Virus record (IMG/VR): IMGVR_UViG_3300030012_001208
Location: 1-26,501 of that record
Source: a virus
Reading direction: 5' to 3' (one strand)
Length of the DNA stretch: 26,501 bases
In this document: piece by piece, positions 2,053-25,948 of the stretch
Layout: each line of letters opens with the position of its first letter
Numbering within the stretch: the stretch's first letter is position 1
The notes under the pieces: model-generated
The model's input: only the letters and a program-made list of their open reading frames with translations
What the model was told of the DNA's origin: nothing
The model's database searches: none
Made by a program: the position numbers and the translations under genes

Positions 2053-2442
2053 TTAATCCAGCTCTCTAATCTTTTGCTTATACCTTTCGATTGATTCCTC
2101 ATAGTCTACTCTGTTTAGTTTTACTATTGTCTTTGCTCTGTATTCTAACTCTTCTGCTGTGCCATCTCCAAACTTTTGGTCTAAATACATACCAAACTTA
2201 TATTGCTCTCCTTGTCTATACATATTGCACTTAATACATTGCACTTGTACGTTTACCTCATCCCAACGAGTAGAGTGGTGGCTTCTACTTTGAAAGTGTC
2301 CAGCTTGTTGCTCTTTCCAATGTTTATCGACTCCACAAGTGAAGCACTTAACTCTACCTAAGTGGTCTGCATTTCTACGTCTTATGTACTGACTAAACAA
2401 AACGTCTAGCTTTTTCTTTAGTTTACTTATTGTTGTTGGCAT
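2053..2442 (-). CDS. NinG-like (Rap-type) recombination nuclease
   Basis: A 129-residue protein with the zinc-binding layout of the lambda NinG family: CFTC at residues 33-36, AGHF at 47-50 where the HNH-like histidine sits, a TRWDE turn at 58-62, QCIKC with cysteines at 69 and 72, then a GEQYKFGMYL helix. Lambda NinG (Rap) is a junction-specific endonuclease that acts on recombination intermediates. It is shorter than lambda NinG (about 200 residues) but keeps the whole conserved core. The gene starts at the very end of the cytosine methyltransferase gene. Its base content is visibly higher in G+C than that of the methyltransferase (25 of 60 bases in the line from 2281, against 10 of 60 from 2701), so the two have different histories. 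Confidence 0.85.
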   Translation of the reverse strand: MPTTISKLKKKLDVLFSQYIRRRNADHLGRVKCFTCGVDKHWKEQQAGHFQSRSHHSTRWDEVNVQVQCIKCNMYRQGEQYKFGMYLDQKFGDGTAEELEYRAKTIVKLNRVDYEESIERYKQKIRELD

Positions 2443-3035
2443 TAAAATAGTTCTGTTTGTTTAATTTTTCTGTCTTGTATTATACCTTGAGCTTGATTTA
2501 AAATATGTAAACCTAATTCAGAATTGACTGCATTTCTATCCTCTTGTGTCTTTTTATTTGCTCTGTTCGGATGTCCTTTTATCATTGTACCAATATCATC
2601 TTTTGGCTGTTTAATAGGTTTTATATAGAAGTTGCTCCAAAATAAATGCCTACCAACTTTTTGAGCTGGTATTAATGGCTCATAGTACGGTGTTACATTT
2701 TCAATACAGTATTTACCTTTGTAAAAATATTGTAAAAAAATAATTTCTTCATATAATTTCATACTTGGATAAACTGGTCTATTTCTTATATGCTGTGTAA
2801 AATAATTTGTTTTTGAATGTGTTGGACAAGGTGGACTACTCCAAATAAAATCAAACTCTTTATAGTGGTCTAGTAAATATTCGTGGGCATCAGAAACTAT
2901 AACATTGTCTAATGGATATAAATTAGCGTATTTATTAGCTATTTTAGCATCTAACTCTATTGCTGTAATTTCGTGTTCATTACCCCATAACTTTCTATTG
3001 CCACCAATTCCAGCATATAAATTTAATATTTTCAT
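2442..3035 (-). CDS. Compact DNA cytosine-5 methyltransferase
   Basis: A 197-residue protein with the core motifs of C5-cytosine methyltransferases: the cofactor-binding LYAGIGGNRKLW (residues 6-17, motif I), AIELD (motif II, 25-29), SSPPCPTHS (66-74, motif IV, with the catalytic cysteine at 70), and CIENV (110-114, motif VI). After this come HLFWSNF and a basic tail. It is much shorter than classical enzymes (above 300 residues), leaving almost no room for a target recognition domain, so it either has a minimal recognition loop or works with a partner. No restriction endonuclease partner is seen, so it is an orphan enzyme that probably protects phage DNA. The gene is strikingly AT-rich. Its start overlaps the preceding gene by 4 bases. 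Confidence 0.85.
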   Translation of the reverse strand: MKILNLYAGIGGNRKLWGNEHEITAIELDAKIANKYANLYPLDNVIVSDAHEYLLDHYKEFDFIWSSPPCPTHSKTNYFTQHIRNRPVYPSMKLYEEIIFLQYFYKGKYCIENVTPYYEPLIPAQKVGRHLFWSNFYIKPIKQPKDDIGTMIKGHPNRANKKTQEDRNAVNSELGLHILNQAQGIIQDRKIKQTELF

Positions 3036-3834: not shown

Positions 3835-4531
3835 TGTGTTCTTTGTTTATCATTTCTAGTCCTTTGTGATAGTTAGATAGTATCTTTTGAACTTTGGTTT
3901 GTTTTTCTGTTTTAAGCTCAAACAATCCCTTCCATCCATTTTCAATAGACTGCTGGATAATTTGAGCCTGGTGTTCTTTGTTGTTGTTGGAGATTCTTAA
4001 TAGCTTAGAAATCGCAGCAGCTTCGCCTAGTGGTTTGTAGATAGTTCTGAATTGCTCTTTCCTAAATTCTTTCCATAAATTCCAAGCCTCTAAATTCAAT
4101 TCAAAAGGATAATCCCTTTCTGTTTTAGTATTATTAGTATTTAGTTTATTTAAGTATTTAGTATTATTAGTATTTAGTAGTGGTCGATTTTCAAAATCTA
4201 GAATTTCTACATCTTGATTTTCTACTTCTTGAAAATCGGTAAGTGGTTTCTCAAAGACTATATAATCCCAAGAAACTATCTTACCTTTCTCTCTTTTTTG
4301 CTCTCGTTTCATATAACCGTTAGATGTCAGCTCTTTAAACGCTGAGTAGATAGCAGATTTGCCATCTGTACTCCATTTCTCAACCTCCTCAACGTATAGC
4401 TTCCAATCGTTAGGCAAAGCCAATAGATGGCATAGCAATCCCTTAGCTTTTAGTGATAAATCTTTATTAAATATAAACTCGTTATTGATTGTGGTAAAGT
4501 TCTTAGACTTTTCTACTCTAATTCTTCTCAT
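3827..4531 (-). CDS. Winged-helix replication-initiator-like protein
   Basis: A 234-residue protein with an N-terminal winged helix of the kind found in phage replication proteins (helix-turn-helix domain of the HTH_36/replisome-organizer type). Residues 12-60 run FTTINNEFIFNKDLSLKAKG, then LLCHLLALPNDW and VEEVEKWSTDGKSAIYSAF, and a wing with KREQKREKGKIVSWDYIVF. The middle (about residues 118-137) is a low-complexity linker in which LNTNNTK is repeated, and the C-terminal part is helical with FELNLEAWNLWKEFRKEQ. Lambda O has a similar plan: a DNA-binding N-terminal domain, then a C-terminal partner-binding domain, with the origin iterons inside its own gene. Here a 22-bp direct repeat lies in the linker-coding part. 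Its start abuts the methyltransferase stop at 4531. Confidence 0.7.
   Translation of the reverse strand: MRRIRVEKSKNFTTINNEFIFNKDLSLKAKGLLCHLLALPNDWKLYVEEVEKWSTDGKSAIYSAFKELTSNGYMKREQKREKGKIVSWDYIVFEKPLTDFQEVENQDVEILDFENRPLLNTNNTKYLNKLNTNNTKTERDYPFELNLEAWNLWKEFRKEQFRTIYKPLGEAAAISKLLRISNNNKEHQAQIIQQSIENGWKGLFELKTEKQTKVQKILSNYHKGLEMINKEHND
4124..4178 (-). repeat. 22-bp perfect direct repeat, candidate origin iterons
   Basis: The 22-mer beginning TTTAGTATTATTAG occurs perfectly at 4124-4145 and 4157-4178, a 33-bp period, inside the linker-coding part of the initiator-like gene. Each copy is itself built from AGTATT-type sub-repeats and is almost free of G and C. The period of 33 keeps the reading frame, so the repeat also appears in the protein as a repeated LNTNNTK stretch. 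The position matches origin iterons inside initiator genes of lambdoid phages. Low complexity alone could also produce it. Confidence 0.75.
4185..4238. repeat. 10-bp inverted repeat next to the iteron-like repeat
   Basis: CGATTTTCAA (4185-4194) is followed after 34 bases by its exact reverse complement TTGAAAATCG (4229-4238). It lies 7 bases beyond the second 22-bp direct repeat, inside the same gene, and could be part of the same origin structure or a binding site. Confidence 0.6.
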
Positions 4532-5544
4532 TAAAATAATTCTTTTTGTTCTGAACTTTCTTTAAATCTTTTTTGAGCTTCCTTTATATTTAATATAGCT
4601 TGTTTAAAATAACTATCTTTTAATTCTATACCAATAGCTTTACGACCTAAAGAAACTGGGCTGTATACCTCACTGCCTACCCCCATAAATGGAGTAAATA
4701 CAACTTCATTAGGATTAGAGTATAATTGTACTATTCTGTCTATAACATCTAATTGCAATGGATGCACGTGTTTTTCATCATCTTCTTCTTTCGTTTGTTT
4801 AAAAGGTAATACATTGTCTATTCTGATATCATCCCATACACTAGATGCGTATCTTTGCCAGATATAATGACTTAATTTATTAGTTTTTGGGTTTTGATGT
4901 CCTTTGTACGTTTTGTTTAAATAATCCCATAATTGAGCAGAGTTTAATTCAGAATCATTAGCATTATTCCAAGCTCTTAAAATATTAGGTAAAATAGGTA
5001 TTTCTCCAGCATAATAATCTAATCCTTTTATATGTGTAACTGGTACTTCATTTTCCCCTTTTTTAGTAAAAATTAAAATATAATCTGGCATAGCTGTAAA
5101 ACATTTAGTAGAATCTTCAACAATAAATTTATGCATTAAAGACTGCACCATAGTTCTCATTCTGACTTTTAATGGCTCTTTCCATATTGTTATACGGTTT
5201 CTGTACTCAAATCCATATTTTTCGTGTAACCTTATTATCTCGTGTGGAAAATCCCATAATCTACAAGTATTATCAAAAACATCTGTACAGTGAACTGCGT
5301 TTATACGACCTTTTTTTGTTACTCTTGACATTTCTTTAATTAAATACTCATATTGTTCTAAAAATTGTTCTTTACTTTCACAGTTGCTAAAATCTTTTTC
5401 GCTACTTGAATAATTATATAGACCAGCAAATGGAGGCGAGTAAATTGATAAGTCTATACTTTCATTTGGTAAAGTTGTAATTACCTCCATACAATCACTA
5501 TTATAAATAGAAAAATTTTCTTCGTGTAGTTGTTCTTTTGTCAT
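4531..5544 (-). CDS. DNA amino-methyltransferase (N4-cytosine or N6-adenine, beta class)
   Basis: A 337-residue methyltransferase of the class in which the catalytic motif comes first: SPPF at residues 36-39 (in DLSIYSPPFAGLY), and the cofactor-binding motif late, FTPFMGVGSEVY at 283-294, followed by KAIGIELKDSYF (motif II). An H-P-L-Q stretch at 261-264 stands where HPTQKP usually is. The S-P-P form favours N4-cytosine, but the F in place of Y leaves the product base open. The long middle (residues 100-260) would hold target recognition. It starts one base after the stop of the SNF2 helicase gene, so the two form a tight pair. No restriction nuclease is next to it. Confidence 0.85.
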   Translation of the reverse strand: MTKEQLHEENFSIYNSDCMEVITTLPNESIDLSIYSPPFAGLYNYSSSEKDFSNCESKEQFLEQYEYLIKEMSRVTKKGRINAVHCTDVFDNTCRLWDFPHEIIRLHEKYGFEYRNRITIWKEPLKVRMRTMVQSLMHKFIVEDSTKCFTAMPDYILIFTKKGENEVPVTHIKGLDYYAGEIPILPNILRAWNNANDSELNSAQLWDYLNKTYKGHQNPKTNKLSHYIWQRYASSVWDDIRIDNVLPFKQTKEEDDEKHVHPLQLDVIDRIVQLYSNPNEVVFTPFMGVGSEVYSPVSLGRKAIGIELKDSYFKQAILNIKEAQKRFKESSEQKELF

Positions 5545-12187: not shown

Positions 12188-14332
12188 TTACCAACTATTA
12201 GTAGATGAAGTGTTATTAGTGTTATTATTAAGACTTAAAGCGTCTAAAGAATCTGTTAATGTTACTGCGCTTGTATTAATCTCATACCATTCGCCATCCC
12301 AAGTATCTTGATTTGCAATAAATGAACATTCATAAGGAATATATAATTTACTATCAATTACAATACCATTATTAAACTTATAGCCATTTGTTAAAATATT
12401 GTTTGTTAGTATTTTTAGACTTCCATTAAATATACTTGCTCCATTATGCTGCCCTTTCATTATTTGATTAATTAATAAGTTGCTTATTTTTTTACCAGTT
12501 CCACTTCCATAAGCTACCCACGTACCAACGTTTCCATTATCATAACTACCAGTACTATGGTCAAAAACTTTTATAGCTCCTTGAGCTGATAATGGTCCAG
12601 TTCCTATAAAAACCTCGCCAACTTCATAGGTTACACCATTTGAGATATTTTGAGTAGTTTTAAAAAATTGTTGACTTGTTGACTCTCCGTTTATGAATGC
12701 TTGTATTAGTTGGTCGTTAGCATTTTCTGGTGCAGAGAAAATATAGAACTTTTGTTGGTCTGATAGTGTTGTGACCTCTGTTCCAGTATCTGGGTCGTTT
12801 TGACCGTAGTTGTGATATACTTTAGCGTAACAATCAAAAAACAAATCACCACCAAAAGGAACTTCGTTAGTTTCAAAATCTAATTCAAAAAAGTTAGAAG
12901 GAGTTACACCCAAAAATCCATTTATAAAAGTATAAGGTACATTATAGTCTGGAGCGTTACCAAAATCACTAAATGAAGTCCAAGTTGCTGCTCCTCCACT
13001 TGTATAATTAGAACGAGCATATACAGTAGAGCTTGTGCCTTCTAATCTTAGCCTATGGTAAAACAAAATAGAACCACTTCCAGTTAAAATAGCATCTAAT
13101 TGAGATGTTGTACCATTAAAAGCTCTGTTAAATCTTCTTTTAAATCTTATAGTTTGACCATCTAGCTGAGTTAATTCTCCTAAATAATATCTTACTCTGG
13201 CACTAAAATCGTCAGCTATGCCATAAATACCACCATCAGTATTAAAACCTTCTCCAACACTATGCCAACCATTCCAAGCAACCAAAGAATTGTTGACAGC
13301 ATTATTAGTACCTGGTGGTTGTTCAACAGTTATAGGTACTAAGTCATAAGCTCGAAACATTTCATATTTTAAATTAGCCTCTTTTAATATAGCTAATTTG
13401 TCAAACTCATTTCCAGCTAATCGTTGTATATTAGTGCCGTCTTCTGTTTTGTTTTCTGTATAAGTACCACTATCGTCTGGTGTAGATGAACTGTTGCCTT
13501 TCAAGTAATCTCTAAAGAATTGGTTTGATGATTGCATTTCATCATAAGTATTAACTTGTATAAAAGTCCATATGCCATTGCTTAAAAACAATCTAGCTCC
13601 GAACACCTTACAAATATCATTTAATAACTTAAAAGCAGTTACGGGTCGTCTTACTCCATTATCATCAATTGGAGCATAAGAAGAAATTTTAAATTTTGAT
13701 ATTTTGAGAGGGTCTCTATCAGAAGCTCTAGAAGCTGGGTATGGTGTCCAATCTACAACCGTTCTTATAAAAACGTCAGTTGAACTCCAGTTGTTATTAG
13801 TATTTGTGTCAGTATATAAAGAGTTATATATTATTAAATATATACCATACTCAAAGTTTAAATTATAATTTGTTTCTTCATTGAAAGGTATATTATCTAA
13901 AGCACCTAGACCACAAATTGCAGTTAATTTAATTTGTCTTGGCAAAGATATATCTTCTTCAGAGTTAATATCATTTAGCAAGTTACCAGCCCAAAATAAA
14001 TAATAAGTTGAATCGTTTGTTGAATTTTCAATCTTTAGCTGCCACCTTTTATAGTCGCTAGTTCTAATAGAGTTTATTAAAGCTATAATATTACTAGGAT
14101 TTCCAATTCCAGAATTATCATCAATAAAAAAACCTAATTCAACTTTAGATGGTATTAATCCAGTAAATCGGTCATCGTCATTAGTTTCATAAGTTAATTT
14201 GAAACCTTCATCGTTAGCAAATACATCATCAAATAATGTAGGGTTTGAGCTAAGAGTGTCAATGATTGTAATTCTGTAATAAGTTCCTCTATCGCTTCTA
14301 AACTTGTATTGTATTCTATTATTTATTGCCAT
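12188..14332 (-). CDS. Large tail tip/baseplate protein (putative)
   Basis: A 714-residue, beta-rich protein directly after the tape measure gene, the place of distal tail and tail-associated proteins in siphoviruses. The first 160 residues (with RIQYKFRSDRGTYYRITIID) look like a distal-tail type beta domain. A helix pair (AFKLLNDICKVFGARLFLSN, about 230-250), leading to WTFIQVNTYDEM, is the arrangement I associate with tail hub proteins of Bacteroidota phages. The rest is beta-rich with S/T/N/G repeats and could carry carbohydrate-binding parts. The start ATG shares a base with the tape measure stop (TAATG). A fused distal-tail plus hub protein is my best guess. Confidence 0.6.
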   Translation of the reverse strand: MAINNRIQYKFRSDRGTYYRITIIDTLSSNPTLFDDVFANDEGFKLTYETNDDDRFTGLIPSKVELGFFIDDNSGIGNPSNIIALINSIRTSDYKRWQLKIENSTNDSTYYLFWAGNLLNDINSEEDISLPRQIKLTAICGLGALDNIPFNEETNYNLNFEYGIYLIIYNSLYTDTNTNNNWSSTDVFIRTVVDWTPYPASRASDRDPLKISKFKISSYAPIDDNGVRRPVTAFKLLNDICKVFGARLFLSNGIWTFIQVNTYDEMQSSNQFFRDYLKGNSSSTPDDSGTYTENKTEDGTNIQRLAGNEFDKLAILKEANLKYEMFRAYDLVPITVEQPPGTNNAVNNSLVAWNGWHSVGEGFNTDGGIYGIADDFSARVRYYLGELTQLDGQTIRFKRRFNRAFNGTTSQLDAILTGSGSILFYHRLRLEGTSSTVYARSNYTSGGAATWTSFSDFGNAPDYNVPYTFINGFLGVTPSNFFELDFETNEVPFGGDLFFDCYAKVYHNYGQNDPDTGTEVTTLSDQQKFYIFSAPENANDQLIQAFINGESTSQQFFKTTQNISNGVTYEVGEVFIGTGPLSAQGAIKVFDHSTGSYDNGNVGTWVAYGSGTGKKISNLLINQIMKGQHNGASIFNGSLKILTNNILTNGYKFNNGIVIDSKLYIPYECSFIANQDTWDGEWYEINTSAVTLTDSLDALSLNNNTNNTSSTNSW

Positions 14333-16236
14333 TAATAACCTCTTGTTCTAGTTCTGTTATTTCTTGCTCTATCTGAGCTTAGTAATATATCTTGACCACT
14401 TATTGTTCCAAATACTTGAACAGCTCCACCACCATTAACTCCAATCATCGAACGTAATTTATCGAGTGGAGCGATGACCTCTGGATTGCTCATTGATGTT
14501 CCTGGTCCTTCTCCGACTAAACCTAATGTAGCTCCAGAAACCAATCCACCTTCTGCAAAGGCTGGAATTAAACTATTAAATGCTGTTTTAGCTAATCCTC
14601 CAGCTGCTCCAGCTATAACTGGAATCAATGCTGGATTCAAAGCAATAAGTGGATTTTTTAAAGCACTTGAAACAGCAGCAGCCACACCCTCTGCCAATAA
14701 AGCACCGATTGCACTTCTTACAGAAGATTTAACTTGGTCAGCAAAATCTTTAAAGTTTTCTGCACCAGCCATTAACACTCTACTCAAACTATCTCCAATT
14801 CTTTCAATTGATTCATCTAGTTGCATAAATACATCCATCAAACTAAGTGCTTCATTCTCTAAATCTTTAGGCAATACTGCTTGAGTCATAGCGCCAGCCA
14901 TCATTCCAGGCTGTTTTATTTGTCTTTTAGGTATTGCTGCTGGAATGGAGCTTGTTGAAGTTGTAACTTTACTAGGTCCACCTACATTTAGTGATTTTCC
15001 TAAGTCTTTAAAAGTTTTTTGAATTTTTTTGCCTTGATTTTCTAGAAAAGTTGTTAAGTCATCAAACTCTGTTTCGTAGTCATCAACTTCTGTTTTCATA
15101 TCTCGGAAAAAATCAGCCGTCTTTCCTTTAAATGGGTTTTCAATTTCTTTATCGAAAATCTTATTAAAAGCATCTAAAAGTAAACTAAATGGGCTATTTT
15201 GAGTGTCTAATAGAGTTGCAGTCATCTCAAGTAGAGTATTCTTCCACCATCTAATATCTTGAAATCTCTCTTTAAAAGCCTCCCAGTTATCATTTACAAA
15301 AAGAATACCTAAAGCTAATCCAGTAATCGCAGCAGCAATAGCAATAAATTTAATACTTAGAGCAGCGACAATAGTAACAATGCTTCCTAAAATAACTAGC
15401 AAAGGTCCTAAAGCTCCAGCTAGAATACCAGCAGTAACAATCATTTTTTTGACTTCTGGGTCAAGTTTTGCAAAACCCTCTAAAAAAGATTTAAACTGAT
15501 TTCCTAAGTCTATCACAATTGGCAAAAGCATCCCTCCAATTTCTTCCATCAAATCGCCAAATTGATTTTGTAGTTGCTTTAAGCCACCAGCACCAGCTTG
15601 TGCAGCAGCTTCAGCAGCTCCACCATATTGCTTATCTAATTCATCTAATATTAAAGTTTGAGCCTCTGCTAGTCTATTTGTTTCTGCTAGTTCTTTAATT
15701 ACTTTCTTTTGTTCCTCTGAGAATTGAATACCACTACGACTTAGAGCTGATAAGTTTGCTATTGGGTCGTTTAATGCTTTACCTAATTGAATACTAGCTG
15801 ATTTTAAATCTCCATCTAATCTAGTTGCTAAGTTTAACGCTGCTAGTTGTGTTCTTTCAAATTGCTCTCCAGCTATATTAGTAAATGTCAATAGTTGAGC
15901 AGTAGCATCTTTTAAAATTACCTCATCGCCAAATAAAGTCTTACCTTGCAACTCAGAAGCCATCTTTTGAAGTTGCTTAGAAGTAAAACCAGCAGCCATA
16001 CCCGTTGACTTAATACCAGCTTCTACTTGTGCTATTGCTTTTTGTTGTTTGTCAAAAGCAGCAATACTAGCTGCACCAAAAGCTAATAATGGTAAAGTTA
16101 AATTTCTGGAGAGTGTCTGTCCAGTCCTTTTCATAGAAGAACCAAATTTCTTCATTGACCTAGTAGCTCTTTTTAAGCTGCTCTGAAATTGCTTATCGTT
16201 AAGTGATAATTTTACGCTAAGATTCTTCTGTGCCAT
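14332..16236 (-). CDS. Tail tape measure protein
   Basis: A 634-residue protein with the standard layout: a basic helical N-terminus (SLKRATRSMKKFGSSMKRTG), long alanine-rich helices (QKAIAQVEAGIKSTG onward), a strongly hydrophobic block at residues 266-314 (IVTAGILAGALGPLLVILGS), and a C-terminal segment FAEGGLVSGATLGLVGEGPG followed by PEVIAPLDKL, a common tape measure ending. It sets tail length and helps DNA pass the host membrane; 634 residues fit a tail of roughly 100 nm by the usual 0.15 nm per residue rule. The start overlaps the end of the frameshifted chaperone product by 20 bases. Confidence 0.9.
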   Translation of the reverse strand: MAQKNLSVKLSLNDKQFQSSLKRATRSMKKFGSSMKRTGQTLSRNLTLPLLAFGAASIAAFDKQQKAIAQVEAGIKSTGMAAGFTSKQLQKMASELQGKTLFGDEVILKDATAQLLTFTNIAGEQFERTQLAALNLATRLDGDLKSASIQLGKALNDPIANLSALSRSGIQFSEEQKKVIKELAETNRLAEAQTLILDELDKQYGGAAEAAAQAGAGGLKQLQNQFGDLMEEIGGMLLPIVIDLGNQFKSFLEGFAKLDPEVKKMIVTAGILAGALGPLLVILGSIVTIVAALSIKFIAIAAAITGLALGILFVNDNWEAFKERFQDIRWWKNTLLEMTATLLDTQNSPFSLLLDAFNKIFDKEIENPFKGKTADFFRDMKTEVDDYETEFDDLTTFLENQGKKIQKTFKDLGKSLNVGGPSKVTTSTSSIPAAIPKRQIKQPGMMAGAMTQAVLPKDLENEALSLMDVFMQLDESIERIGDSLSRVLMAGAENFKDFADQVKSSVRSAIGALLAEGVAAAVSSALKNPLIALNPALIPVIAGAAGGLAKTAFNSLIPAFAEGGLVSGATLGLVGEGPGTSMSNPEVIAPLDKLRSMIGVNGGGAVQVFGTISGQDILLSSDRARNNRTRTRGY

Positions 16237-16902
16237 TGTCTTTATTTAGCAATTCGTATTTCTTTTTAATATATTCTGCTCTTTTTCTTTGTTTCTCGAT
16301 GTCGGTCTTTACTTTCTTTTTCTCCCAATCAAACTTAACAAGTTTCTGAGGGGTTAGGTTTTGTCCTTTCTTAGTGTGTGGCTGTAAATTAACACAAGCC
16401 AACCATCGCACTCGTTCCCACTCTTGACGTTGCTCTAGTTCAAATCGGTCATTAATACCTTTTTGAGTACATAGAAACTCGTGAAAAGTAAGATTCCAAA
16501 AGTCTCTAGGTAATAAACCGAGACCATAAGCGACAGCCTCTAATTTATCCCAAGTTACTTCTTTTTCTTCGCCCCTTTCGGAGCTTTCACGTTTCCCTCT
16601 GTCTCAAATTTAGCTGAGAATTGATTAGAGAATATCTCTAGCACTTTATTTAGTGCGTCAAAATCTTCGTCTAACATATCTGCAACATCATCAACACTTA
16701 AAGAACATTCTTGACCACTCACTCGTGAGCCGTCTTTTATTCCGTTTAGGATTAGATAACAAGCATCATCTAAGCTCATACCCTCTCCTAGCTTATCTAA
16801 GTCAGCTAAACTTCTATTAGTATCTCGGCAAAATAGTCTAAGACTATTCATTCCAAACCTTACACTATAATCTTTACCATTTATTATAACTACTTCGTAC
16901 AT
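16217..16902 (-). CDS. Tail assembly chaperone long form (gpGT) made by -1 frameshift
   Basis: Reading gpG to its penultimate lysines and then moving back one base gives a continuous frame to the TAG at 16217, a product of about 228 residues. The extension (114 residues) runs from EVTWDKLEAVAYGLGLLPRD to WNLTFHEFL, and on to a lysine-rich end. The W-x-x-L-E-A ... P-R-x-F-W-x-L-T-x-x-E-F pattern is that of gpT-like tail chaperone domains (TAC family). The extension is open for the whole stretch 16561-16217, although its only internal candidate start is a GTG at 16411, which would cut the conserved domain in two. This is the classic gpG/gpGT arrangement found before tape measure genes in long-tailed phages. 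It binds the tape measure protein during tail assembly and is absent from the finished virion. Confidence 0.85.
16555..16902 (-). CDS. Tail assembly chaperone short form (gpG)
   Basis: A 115-residue product ending at the in-frame TAA. It starts MYEVVIINGKDYSVRFGMN, has a helical middle (NSLRLFCRDTNRSLADLDKL and YLILNGIKDG) and an acidic helix, DDVADMLDEDFDALNKVLEI, then a basic end, APKGAKKKK. This suits the gpG family in size, position and acidic helices. The lysine-rich codons at the end form the frameshift site. The leader is AACTAACAAAGAT before ATG, part of which can pair with a sequence about 50 bases upstream (see the hairpin entry). Confidence 0.85.
   Translation of the reverse strand: MYEVVIINGKDYSVRFGMNSLRLFCRDTNRSLADLDKLGEGMSLDDACYLILNGIKDGSRVSGQECSLSVDDVADMLDEDFDALNKVLEIFSNQFSAKFETEGNVKAPKGAKKKK
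16561..16567 (-). other. Programmed -1 frameshift site G_AAA_AAG
   Basis: In the gpG frame the last codons read GCG AAG AAA AAG AAG TAA. A slip back by one base on AAA AAG places the lysine tRNA on AAA, and the next codons (GAA GTA ACT TGG) enter the conserved extension. The zero-frame stop follows one codon later. The AAAAAG core is the known slippery part of dnaX-type sites; the base before it is G where A would be ideal. A GGGG run lies 5 bases upstream. Confidence 0.7.
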
Positions 16903-16975: not shown

Positions 16976-17425
16976 TTAAGCTACTGTTTGAACTAAAGCT
17001 CCAGTTCCTTCAATACTTACAGAATAAGTTGGAGCATCTTCTGTACCTCCACTTATTTCTAAAGAAGTGATAAAACCACTACCACTATAACTATACTCTC
17101 CAGTTGCTGGAGAATCAAATCCAAAGGTAAATGTTACAGCAGTTCTACCAGTACCACCTACTGGTTGAAACATTTGATTGAATAACTCATCTACTTCTGT
17201 ATCACCAGCCACACCAGCAAAGTCCATTAGTCCATCTGCTGATAAGCTATAAGACATTTGACCAGCTAGTAAATCTCTAAAACCACTAGAGTCTTTTGTT
17301 GAGATGTCTATTGTATCTACGTTCATACTTAATGATACATTCTGAGAGTGCATCAATTTTACAGCCGTCCCTCCACTAGAAGGACTAACTTTTAGGATTA
17401 AATCCGTTCCGTTAAAAATTGCCAT
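16976..17425 (-). CDS. Major tail tube protein (TP901-1 family)
   Basis: A 149-residue protein with the tail tube pattern: an N-terminal strand (MAIFNGTDLILKVS), the block VSLSMNVDTIDISTKDS leading to GFRDLLAGQMSYSLSADGLM (residues 29-66), and beta-rich C-terminal part FTFGFDSPATGEYSYSGSGF and SLEISGGTEDAPTYSVSIEG. The D-x-S-x-K-D-S-S-G-F/W core is typical of the TP901-1/phage_tail_2 family. It forms the hexameric rings of the tail tube. It precedes the chaperone and tape measure genes as in all siphoviruses of this type. Many copies are needed per virion; the hairpin following it may protect its mRNA end. Confidence 0.9.
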   Translation of the reverse strand: MAIFNGTDLILKVSPSSGGTAVKLMHSQNVSLSMNVDTIDISTKDSSGFRDLLAGQMSYSLSADGLMDFAGVAGDTEVDELFNQMFQPVGGTGRTAVTFTFGFDSPATGEYSYSGSGFITSLEISGGTEDAPTYSVSIEGTGALVQTVA

Positions 17426-23624: not shown

Positions 23625-25193
23625 TCAAATCCACATTATACCTCTATCGTCATAGGTAGATGAGTCGCTAGAATCGTCATTCATATAACAGCCTAGAGCC
23701 ATTACAAGAGCAACCATTCCGTCAATCTTCTCAGTTGATTTACTTTTATCCATTTTAATATTACCAGCTGGGTCTGACTTCATAGCTAAGTTAGAACACA
23801 TCCACCTTAACACTTTGTTACCAGCGTGGTTAATCTGTTTGCCTAAAACTAACTTTTCTAGTTCTTTAGTTGGTGCTGACATACTAGCAAAGCCTTGACC
23901 ATAGCTCTCCATTGGTAATCCATCTTCTGTTAAATCAATCACTAGTTGGCTAGAGTTCCAACGGTCATAGGCTATCGACTTAATGTTTACAACCTCAGCA
24001 ACTTCTTTTATTCTACGTTTTATATAGTTGTAGTCTGTGACATCGCCCTCAGTTAGTTCCATCAATCCCTCTTTCTCCCAACCTATGTAGTCTACTTGGT
24101 CACGTCTTGAACGAATGAAAGCGTTTTCTTTAGGAGCAAAGAAGTAAGGGATTACCGTAAACCTATCATCCTCTGGAATAATTAACAGAAATGCACTAAT
24201 GTCCCTAACCGAAGCTAAATCTAAACCAGCATAAGCAGTCATCCCTTTGTAATCTTCTAAGTTGATTGGAGCTTTGTTACACTCCATCCATTGTTGGTCT
24301 GATAGCCACTTACTAGCTGATGACATCCATTGGTTGAGGTGTAACATTCTAAAAGTATTCTCATAGCTTGGTAATTTGATTGCTTTTTCTTGTTCTCTTT
24401 TGAGATAGTCTAATTTTACAACTCCACTTTCAAGTCCAGGATTTGCAATCTTGAGAGCCTCTTCACTTGTCCAATCTGTTTCTAAATCACAAGCATACTT
24501 GACATAGTAGAAACTAGAATCTTTGATTATACCCTCTGATACTTTACGACCATACTCCTCTGTCTTGTAGCATATCGACTCACGATTGTAACCAGCAGTA
24601 GTAATCGCTATTGTCAATGGTTGCCTCCTACTACCAACTGAAGTAGTCAAGGCATCCCATAGGCTAGAATCTTTCTGAACAAAAAACTCGTCCATACAAA
24701 TAAAACTAGCGTTGTATCCAAACTTAGAACTAGCCTCAGAACTGATAGCCTTAAATGCTGAGTTGCTTTTCTCGTGGATAATAGAGTTCTTAAATACTTT
24801 TAGATTTTTGTTTAGTTGATTGTCAGCTCTAACCATTCCACTAGCAACATCAAATATAATACCAGCTTGTTGTCTATCTCCAGCTGCAATATAACACTCA
24901 GCCGAAGGCTCGTTGTCGGCTAGTAACATATACAAAGCGATAGCACTAATTAGAGTAGACTTTCCGTTCTTTCTTGGTAGACAAATGTAAGCAGTTCTAA
25001 ATCTTCTTAGACCACTATCTCTATACTTCCAACCAAATAAATCTCTTACTATTGTTTTCTGAAATGGCTCTAACTTAAATGGCTGACCTCCTAACTCTCC
25101 TTTGATATGCTTGATGTGATTCTCTATAAAGTAGACAACTCTATCGGCTGCCTTATCATCAAAGTAAAAAGTCTTATCCTCTTTAAGTTTCAT
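23625..25193 (-). CDS. Terminase large subunit
   Basis: A 522-residue packaging ATPase-nuclease of the HK97/Terminase_1 type. ATPase motifs: Walker A PRKNGKST (73-80), Walker B FICMDEF (164-170, with the catalytic glutamate at 169), coupling motif TTAG (198-201). Nuclease motifs: first aspartate D325 in AYAGLDLASVRD, then YDRWNS (409-414) and a late aspartate D491 in KIDGMVAL. Length is normal. It cuts concatemeric DNA and pumps it into the prohead. It overlaps the methyltransferase gene upstream by 4 bases, which separates it from the small subunit gene. Base content is higher in G+C than that gene (23 of 60 bases in the line from 24301). Confidence 0.95.
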   Translation of the reverse strand: MKLKEDKTFYFDDKAADRVVYFIENHIKHIKGELGGQPFKLEPFQKTIVRDLFGWKYRDSGLRRFRTAYICLPRKNGKSTLISAIALYMLLADNEPSAECYIAAGDRQQAGIIFDVASGMVRADNQLNKNLKVFKNSIIHEKSNSAFKAISSEASSKFGYNASFICMDEFFVQKDSSLWDALTTSVGSRRQPLTIAITTAGYNRESICYKTEEYGRKVSEGIIKDSSFYYVKYACDLETDWTSEEALKIANPGLESGVVKLDYLKREQEKAIKLPSYENTFRMLHLNQWMSSASKWLSDQQWMECNKAPINLEDYKGMTAYAGLDLASVRDISAFLLIIPEDDRFTVIPYFFAPKENAFIRSRRDQVDYIGWEKEGLMELTEGDVTDYNYIKRRIKEVAEVVNIKSIAYDRWNSSQLVIDLTEDGLPMESYGQGFASMSAPTKELEKLVLGKQINHAGNKVLRWMCSNLAMKSDPAGNIKMDKSKSTEKIDGMVALVMALGCYMNDDSSDSSTYDDRGIMWI

Positions 25194-25948
25194 ATTAGAC
25201 TTAGTTGAGGTTGATGTTCTTTAATTCTTTTACTTGCAATCTCAAAATAGTTTTTATCTTTTTCTATCCCTATAAAATATCTATTTAAATTTTTACAAGC
25301 TACTCCAGTTGTTCCACTACCCATAGTGAAATCTAATACTGTTTCGTTTTCTTTGGTGTATGTTTTAATAAGATACTCTATTAAAGCCACTGGTTTTTGT
25401 GTTGGATGTTGTCTTTTTATACCCTTTTCAGTTGTATTAAATTTTTGAATAGATGAAGGTTGTCTTAATTCTTGTCCTTGTGTTGTACAAATTGTTTTTT
25501 TCATACGAATTGTATTACAAGCTTTTCCTATATTATAATTTGCTTTAATTCTTTCTAAACCGTTGCCTTTTCTTTTTTCTTTAATCGGATAATATTTATG
25601 AGTTTTATAACTAAATACACTTATAACTTCGTGTTCTTTCATTGGTTGATATTTTACCAAAGCAAAATTAGAACCTCTATTTTTTTCCCATATCCAGTCA
25701 TATTTAAAGTTTTTAATATTGCTCATTCTTAAAGCACTACTAAACGGCTCACTACCAAATAAAACTATAGCACCATTAGGTTTTATTATTCTATTTAATT
25801 GTTCCCACATTGCTTCAAAAGGAATTACATTATCCCACTTACACGCTGTCGTTCCATAGGGTGGGTCTGTAATTATAGAATCAATACTATTATCTCTAAT
25901 AGATTTCATTACCTCTAAACAATCTCCGTTATATAAGTCAATCATCAA
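25190..25948 (-). CDS. DNA adenine-type methyltransferase between the terminase genes
   Basis: A 252-residue methyltransferase of the beta class: DPPY at residues 28-31 (ITDPPYGTTACKWDN) comes first, a long central recognition region follows, and HPTQKPVALIEYLIKTY (181-197), then VLDFTMGSGTTGVAC (204-218) and RYFIGIEKDKNYFEIA at the end give the cofactor site. DPPY favours N6-adenine methylation. It is an orphan, with no nuclease partner. Its ATG overlaps the small subunit stop and its stop overlaps the large subunit start, so it is translated with the packaging genes and could mark DNA before it is packaged. The gene is clearly AT-richer than both terminase genes (14 of 60 bases G+C in the line from 25501). 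Confidence 0.9.
   Translation of the reverse strand: MMIDLYNGDCLEVMKSIRDNSIDSIITDPPYGTTACKWDNVIPFEAMWEQLNRIIKPNGAIVLFGSEPFSSALRMSNIKNFKYDWIWEKNRGSNFALVKYQPMKEHEVISVFSYKTHKYYPIKEKRKGNGLERIKANYNIGKACNTIRMKKTICTTQGQELRQPSSIQKFNTTEKGIKRQHPTQKPVALIEYLIKTYTKENETVLDFTMGSGTTGVACKNLNRYFIGIEKDKNYFEIASKRIKEHQPQLSLI

Follow-up and report, generated by a model that had tools for sequence, protein, structure and literature searches.

The tail genes of this phage pose the question of whether two overlapping frames, a short chaperone gene and an open stretch behind it, are joined into one protein by ribosomal frameshifting and, if so, at which site the ribosomes slip. The window analyzed here (26,501 nucleotides; positions 1 to 26,501 of IMG/VR virus record IMGVR_UViG_3300030012_001208) carries on its minus strand a siphophage-like structural module, recognized from ORFs and profile matches, with the order terminase, portal, protease, major head protein, connector proteins, tail terminator, tail tube, G, extension, and tape measure (Table 1). 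The G and extension frames are thus found in the lambda-type position, between the tail tube (Phage_tail_2) and tape measure (phrog_27166) genes, and the tape measure gene, from its ATG on, shares 20 nt with the end of the extension. The original prediction, of a gpG/gpGT-type chaperone pair made through a -1 frameshift, is well supported by this gene order, by a selected -1 frame, and by family matches; the slip site that it proposed, G_AAA_AAG at the end of G, gives way to G_GGA_AAC, 30 nt upstream.

Table 1. Coordinates of the frameshift cassette and its neighbors in the window
Feature	Coordinates	Strand	Basis
Gene G, short tail assembly chaperone (115 aa), 0-frame product	16555..16902	-	ORF, phrog_2115, model, BFVD
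Slippery heptamer G_GGA_AAC in the G frame (codons 103-104), proposed -1 slip site	16591..16597	-	Sequence, conservation
TGA, last -1-frame stop 5' of the slip site; 5' limit for the shift	16604..16606	-	
Spacer GTGAAA, 6 nt	16585..16590	-	6 nt in 30/30 distinct junctions
Presumed stimulatory hairpin GCTCC-GAAA-GGGGC (-8.4 kcal/mol)	16571..16584	-	Folding, conservation
G_AAA_AAG of the original prediction, lysine-rich gpG tail; unconserved as a slip site	16561..16567	-	
-1-frame extension (T part), 124 codons past the slip plus TAG	16217..16591	-	ORF, phrog_16333, diversity
Tail tube protein, upstream neighbor of G	16976..17425	-	Phage_tail_2, E 3.1e-16
Tail tape measure protein, downstream neighbor of the extension	14332..16236	-	phrog_27166, E 2e-69

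Elsewhere in the window, the large gene that follows the tape measure gene (12188-14332; 714 aa) gave no PHROG match at 1e-3, and three ORFs (2442-3035, 4531-5544, and 25190-25948) resemble DNA methyltransferases by eye, one of them directly preceding the gene for the terminase large subunit.

The -1 frame (16603-16219; 128 codons) is open from after the TGA at 16606 to the TAG ending at 16217. Its downstream limit had been predicted correctly; its beginning had been placed at the lysine codons that close G, and the frame is in fact open for about 36 nt further upstream. The residues quoted from it, WDKLEA ... PRDFWNLTFHEF, are present. Among 80 distinct relatives, nucleotide diversity in the extension (after the G stop) is 0.123, 0.060, and 0.283 at -1-frame codon positions 1, 2, and 3, and the values for G at the corresponding positions of its own frame are 0.072, 0.026, and 0.220. 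Stops in the -1 frame of related phages had been named beforehand as evidence that would count against the prediction; none occurs within the extension in any of the 80 distinct sequences, and the other two frames mostly contain four to eight each. Judged by codon-position diversity, the -1 frame shows protein-level selection. In all relatives the last -1-frame stop begins 1, 7, or 13 nt 5' of a GAG codon at the junction.

Read in the G frame, the junction of the window is ACA GAG GGA AAC GTG AAA GCT CCG AAA GGG GCG AAG AAA AAG AAG TAA. The codons GAG GGA AAC contain a perfect X_XXY_YYZ heptamer, G_GGA_AAC (16597-16591), just past the last -1-frame stop. In the other genes of the window, 0-frame heptamers of this form (X different from Y) have a frequency of 0.0052 per codon; at that rate the overlap should hold about 0.07 of them, and the presence of G_GGA_AAC there is not a matter of chance. 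Beginning 6 nt past the heptamer is a hairpin of 5 bp (16584-16571), a distance that fits the spacing of about 5-9 nt of -1 signals; the stem is short, and the hairpin of the window itself has a z-score of just -1.68. The GGGG that had been considered as a Shine-Dalgarno-like stimulator forms the 3' arm of this conserved hairpin. Proximity of the stop, which had been suggested to matter in its place, is not needed: the 0-frame TAA begins 40 nt past the first base of the likely heptamer, a distance of 37-46 nt in relatives.

When viral contigs were searched with the extension only, 201 relatives were found; in all 80 that were among the matches listed, GGGAAAC is invariant and occupies the same place, a few codons past the last -1-frame stop. 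The heptamer is likewise present in 80 further records retrieved by a search with the G protein, many of them from the same contigs, including four near contig ends in which the junction was not called automatically. The spacer keeps its length of 6 nt throughout the distinct junctions of the clade, and the stem is perfect in 29 of these 30, in the versions GCTCC/GGGGC, GCTCC/GGAGC, and GCCAC/GTGGC; one junction type has a mismatched stem (GCCAC/GGGGC). Pairing is maintained through U-G, U-A, or C-G at pair 3 and C-G or A-U at pair 4, a covariation that rests on few events, there being only four stem sequence versions within the clade. The loop has 4, 7, or 10 nt, so that whole codons have been gained or lost with the stem retained.

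These comparisons bear on where the frame is changed and on whether ribosomes change it at all. Slippage at G_AAA_AAG, or at the lysine codons by the stop with help from the nearby stop, has in its favor that the tetramer A_AAG slips very readily in E. coli (PMC5009743) and that some relatives do shift beside the stop (GGGAAAGTAG). The end of G, AAG AAA AAG AAG TAA, is as originally described, and G_AAA_AAG (16567-16561) is indeed an imperfect heptamer, its first base precluding perfect P-site re-pairing. However, just 13 of the 30 distinct junctions have G_AAA_AAG in frame (elsewhere the lysine run is AAGAAGAAG, ACAAAGAAA, etc.), the extension is intact in the 17 that have lost it, and the conserved heptamer and hairpin lie upstream. 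Because GGGAAAC is found in all 30, the choice between the two sites is decided; conservation eliminates G_AAA_AAG as a candidate, and we consider a shift there, or at the lysine codons by the stop, very unlikely.

If, on the other hand, the extension were a separate gene with a start of its own, for example the GTG at 16411, or were not expressed, no shift would be called for, and public relatives are in fact annotated with two distinct hypothetical proteins. This explanation is highly improbable, given that the -1 frame is conserved 5' of any start: ATG, GTG, and TTG are absent from the -1 frame of the window before 16411, and from the extension frame before codon 27 in all 80 distinct sequences, which led us to reject an independent start. 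The first start, at codon 27 or later, varies in place, so the conserved WDKLEA region can be reached only from G, and a separate gene would omit the conserved first helix that contains it. A fused message could also be produced by transcriptional slippage rather than ribosomal frameshifting, and runs of nine A in the overlap of several distant relatives could act in this way. To this explanation we give almost no credence, as the overlap in the clade lacks a long homopolymer (the longest in the window is A5) and GGGAAAC, spacer, and hairpin are all kept.

The proteins themselves were compared with known families. gpG matches the phrog_2115 tail protein (E 1.3e-4), as do 30 of 49 relatives; four of the 49 match the phrog_183 tail chaperone, six Phage_TAC_12, and three TAC_11. 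An AlphaFold model of gpG (pLDDT 83) has a beta hairpin followed by helices and is ordered through residue 102; this order ends before slip codons 103-104, so both products would share the whole folded domain. A fold search with this model among predicted viral proteins (BFVD) recovered tail assembly chaperones (E 1.7e-5, TM 0.74). The extension matches phrog_16333, a family of unknown function (E 1.3e-16), as do all 52 relatives tested, and the profile search against chaperone families that had been proposed as a check gave matches to Phage_TAC_6 for 13 of 56 relatives (E 9.3e-6 at best) and to the lambda-type Phage_tail_T for a single one (E 6.4e-5). The window's own G and extension proteins fall below the Pfam curated cut-offs for the TAC families. 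Searches of solved structures (PDB), by sequence and by fold, gave no usable match for G or the extension; gpG and the extension were not detectably related to each other; Rfam had no match in the region; and neither the tail module DNA nor the gpG protein matched deposited phages. Across relatives, a modest case can be made that G and the extension are homologous to tail assembly chaperone families.

From the gene order, the selected -1 frame, the invariant heptamer and spacer, the conserved hairpin, and the relatedness to chaperone families, we infer a lambda-type G/GT cassette with a shift at G_GGA_AAC aided by the hairpin, a reading that we hold to be very probable. Most ribosomes would read G to its TAA and release the 115-aa chaperone gpG. 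A minority would pause at the hairpin with GGA and AAC in the ribosomal sites; the two tRNAs would then slip in tandem, re-pairing with GGG and AAA one base back, and translation would continue from CGT in the -1 frame. The minor product, gpGT, would have 228 aa (gpG residues 1-104 followed by 124 extension residues). In lambda, the tape measure protein is bound by gpG as well as by gpGT, and recruitment of tail tube subunits falls to the T part (PMC5009743); by analogy, the G part may coat the tape measure protein here and the rarer T part recruit subunits of the tail tube.

Highly efficient slippage in E. coli requires an A-site codon made up entirely of purines or entirely of pyrimidines, and E. 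coli ribosomes accept re-pairing from AAC to AAA less readily than eukaryotic ones do (PMC4066793). By this rule AAC would be expected to slip weakly in E. coli, which counts against the proposed cassette. For mammalian ribosomes G_GGA_AAC ranks with the best sites, and the haloarchaeal virus HCTV-1 uses it in its g-t frameshift (PMC5009743); a heptamer ending in AAC is unusual for bacteria and is not unprecedented for tail chaperones. The phage host, judging from relatives, probably belongs to the Bacteroidota. It is conceivable, if doubtful, that ribosomes of the host (probably a marine member of this group), in contrast to those of E. coli, slip efficiently when AAC occupies the A site, so that the clade could fix a heptamer that is otherwise characteristic of animal viruses, and that slip site and stimulator have been exchanged many times around one chaperone, making a natural series of the wider family.

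Profile searches extended the comparison to viral relatives of mostly 29-46% identity and to Bacteroidota genomes, including Prevotella, Alistipes, Muribaculaceae, and Polaribacter. Each of about 50 distinct distant junctions has a perfect 0-frame heptamer in its overlap (GGGAAAG, GGGAAAC, AAAAAAG, AAAAAAC, GGGAAAA, or a run of nine A); heptamers have a higher base rate in lysine-rich ends than in average genes, and the number of distant junctions without one is zero. The direction of the shift is -1 in all of these junctions except that of Cellulophaga phage phi39:1. In phi39:1 (L082:2944-2960 and L243), G and the extension are joined by A8, which as deposited requires +1 or -2. We did not accept this as a true switch of direction, as it stands alone, nine A as in relatives would give -1, and the homopolymer may have been miscalled. 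The annotations of deposited Bacteroides and Cellulophaga phages (L083:2636-3288, L331:555-1207, and L082:2586-3312) list G and extension as two separate hypothetical proteins and miss the fusion.

The presumed stimulators differ among these relatives. In those from Polaribacter (L170-L172), G_GGA_AAG directly precedes the stop and is followed, after 4 nt, by a 12-bp hairpin (-18.4 kcal/mol), and the AAAAAAG group has stems of the form CCCAAG...CTTGGG or GGCCAAG...CTTGGCC. No clear hairpin was found in the gut-type relatives with nine A (L164, L165, L166, L168, L083, L227, and L231), where either a ribosomal slip or transcriptional slippage is possible, nor was a downstream hairpin found in the group whose GGGAAAG directly precedes TAG (L188, L192, L201, L215, and L244). 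Overall, folding is stronger in the 50 nt downstream of the heptamers than in controls taken upstream (mean z -1.56 and -0.58, respectively), with z below -2 in 32 of 77 downstream and 12 of 77 upstream segments (rank test p 0.004, the sequences not being independent). A tree of slip types calls for a minimum of 13-14 changes, but its branches are long, many of its forks are open, and the labels are ambiguous wherever GGGAAAAAAG contains two heptamers. On this comparison we claim no more than that the slip type has changed many times.

The corrected slip site can be tested with a small number of constructs. The analysis also suggests roles for two families: phrog_16333 as the T extension, and phrog_2115-like proteins as gpG. 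These roles would apply to marine and gut phages with Bacteroidota-linked relatives, in which public annotation misses the fusion. The relatives (GGGAAAC, GGGAAAG, AAAAAAG, and A9, with or without a hairpin) provide a ready series for studying the turnover of frameshift signals, and for asking whether ribosomes that rely little on Shine-Dalgarno pairing follow E. coli rules. Our literature search, of incomplete coverage, found no report of a GGGAAAC site in Bacteroidota phages.

Several known systems resemble the locus in part. The GTA/HK97-type families (Phage_TAC_6, TAC_11, and TAC_12) are linked to it through weak to moderate profile matches of G and extension across relatives, although the window's own proteins do not reach the curated cut-offs. 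Cellulophaga phage phi39:1 (gp19/gp20) and Bacteroides phages F2, F4, and Bacuni_F1 have a homologous extension in the same position and slippery A runs in the overlap; their signals are A8 or A9 runs rather than GGGAAAC and a hairpin, and phi39:1 departs from -1 in its deposited form. HCTV-1 has the identical heptamer in the same kind of gene pair, and its host is an archaeon. With lambda (G_GGA_AAG) the locus shares the position between tail tube and tape measure, a short chaperone with a -1 extension, and a GGGAAA-type X_XXY_YYZ heptamer, as well as the Phage_tail_T match of one relative's extension; it differs from lambda in having AAC rather than AAG in the A site, a conserved downstream hairpin, and proteins with little similarity to those of lambda. 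The locus is a well-supported new case of the known lambda G/GT mechanism.
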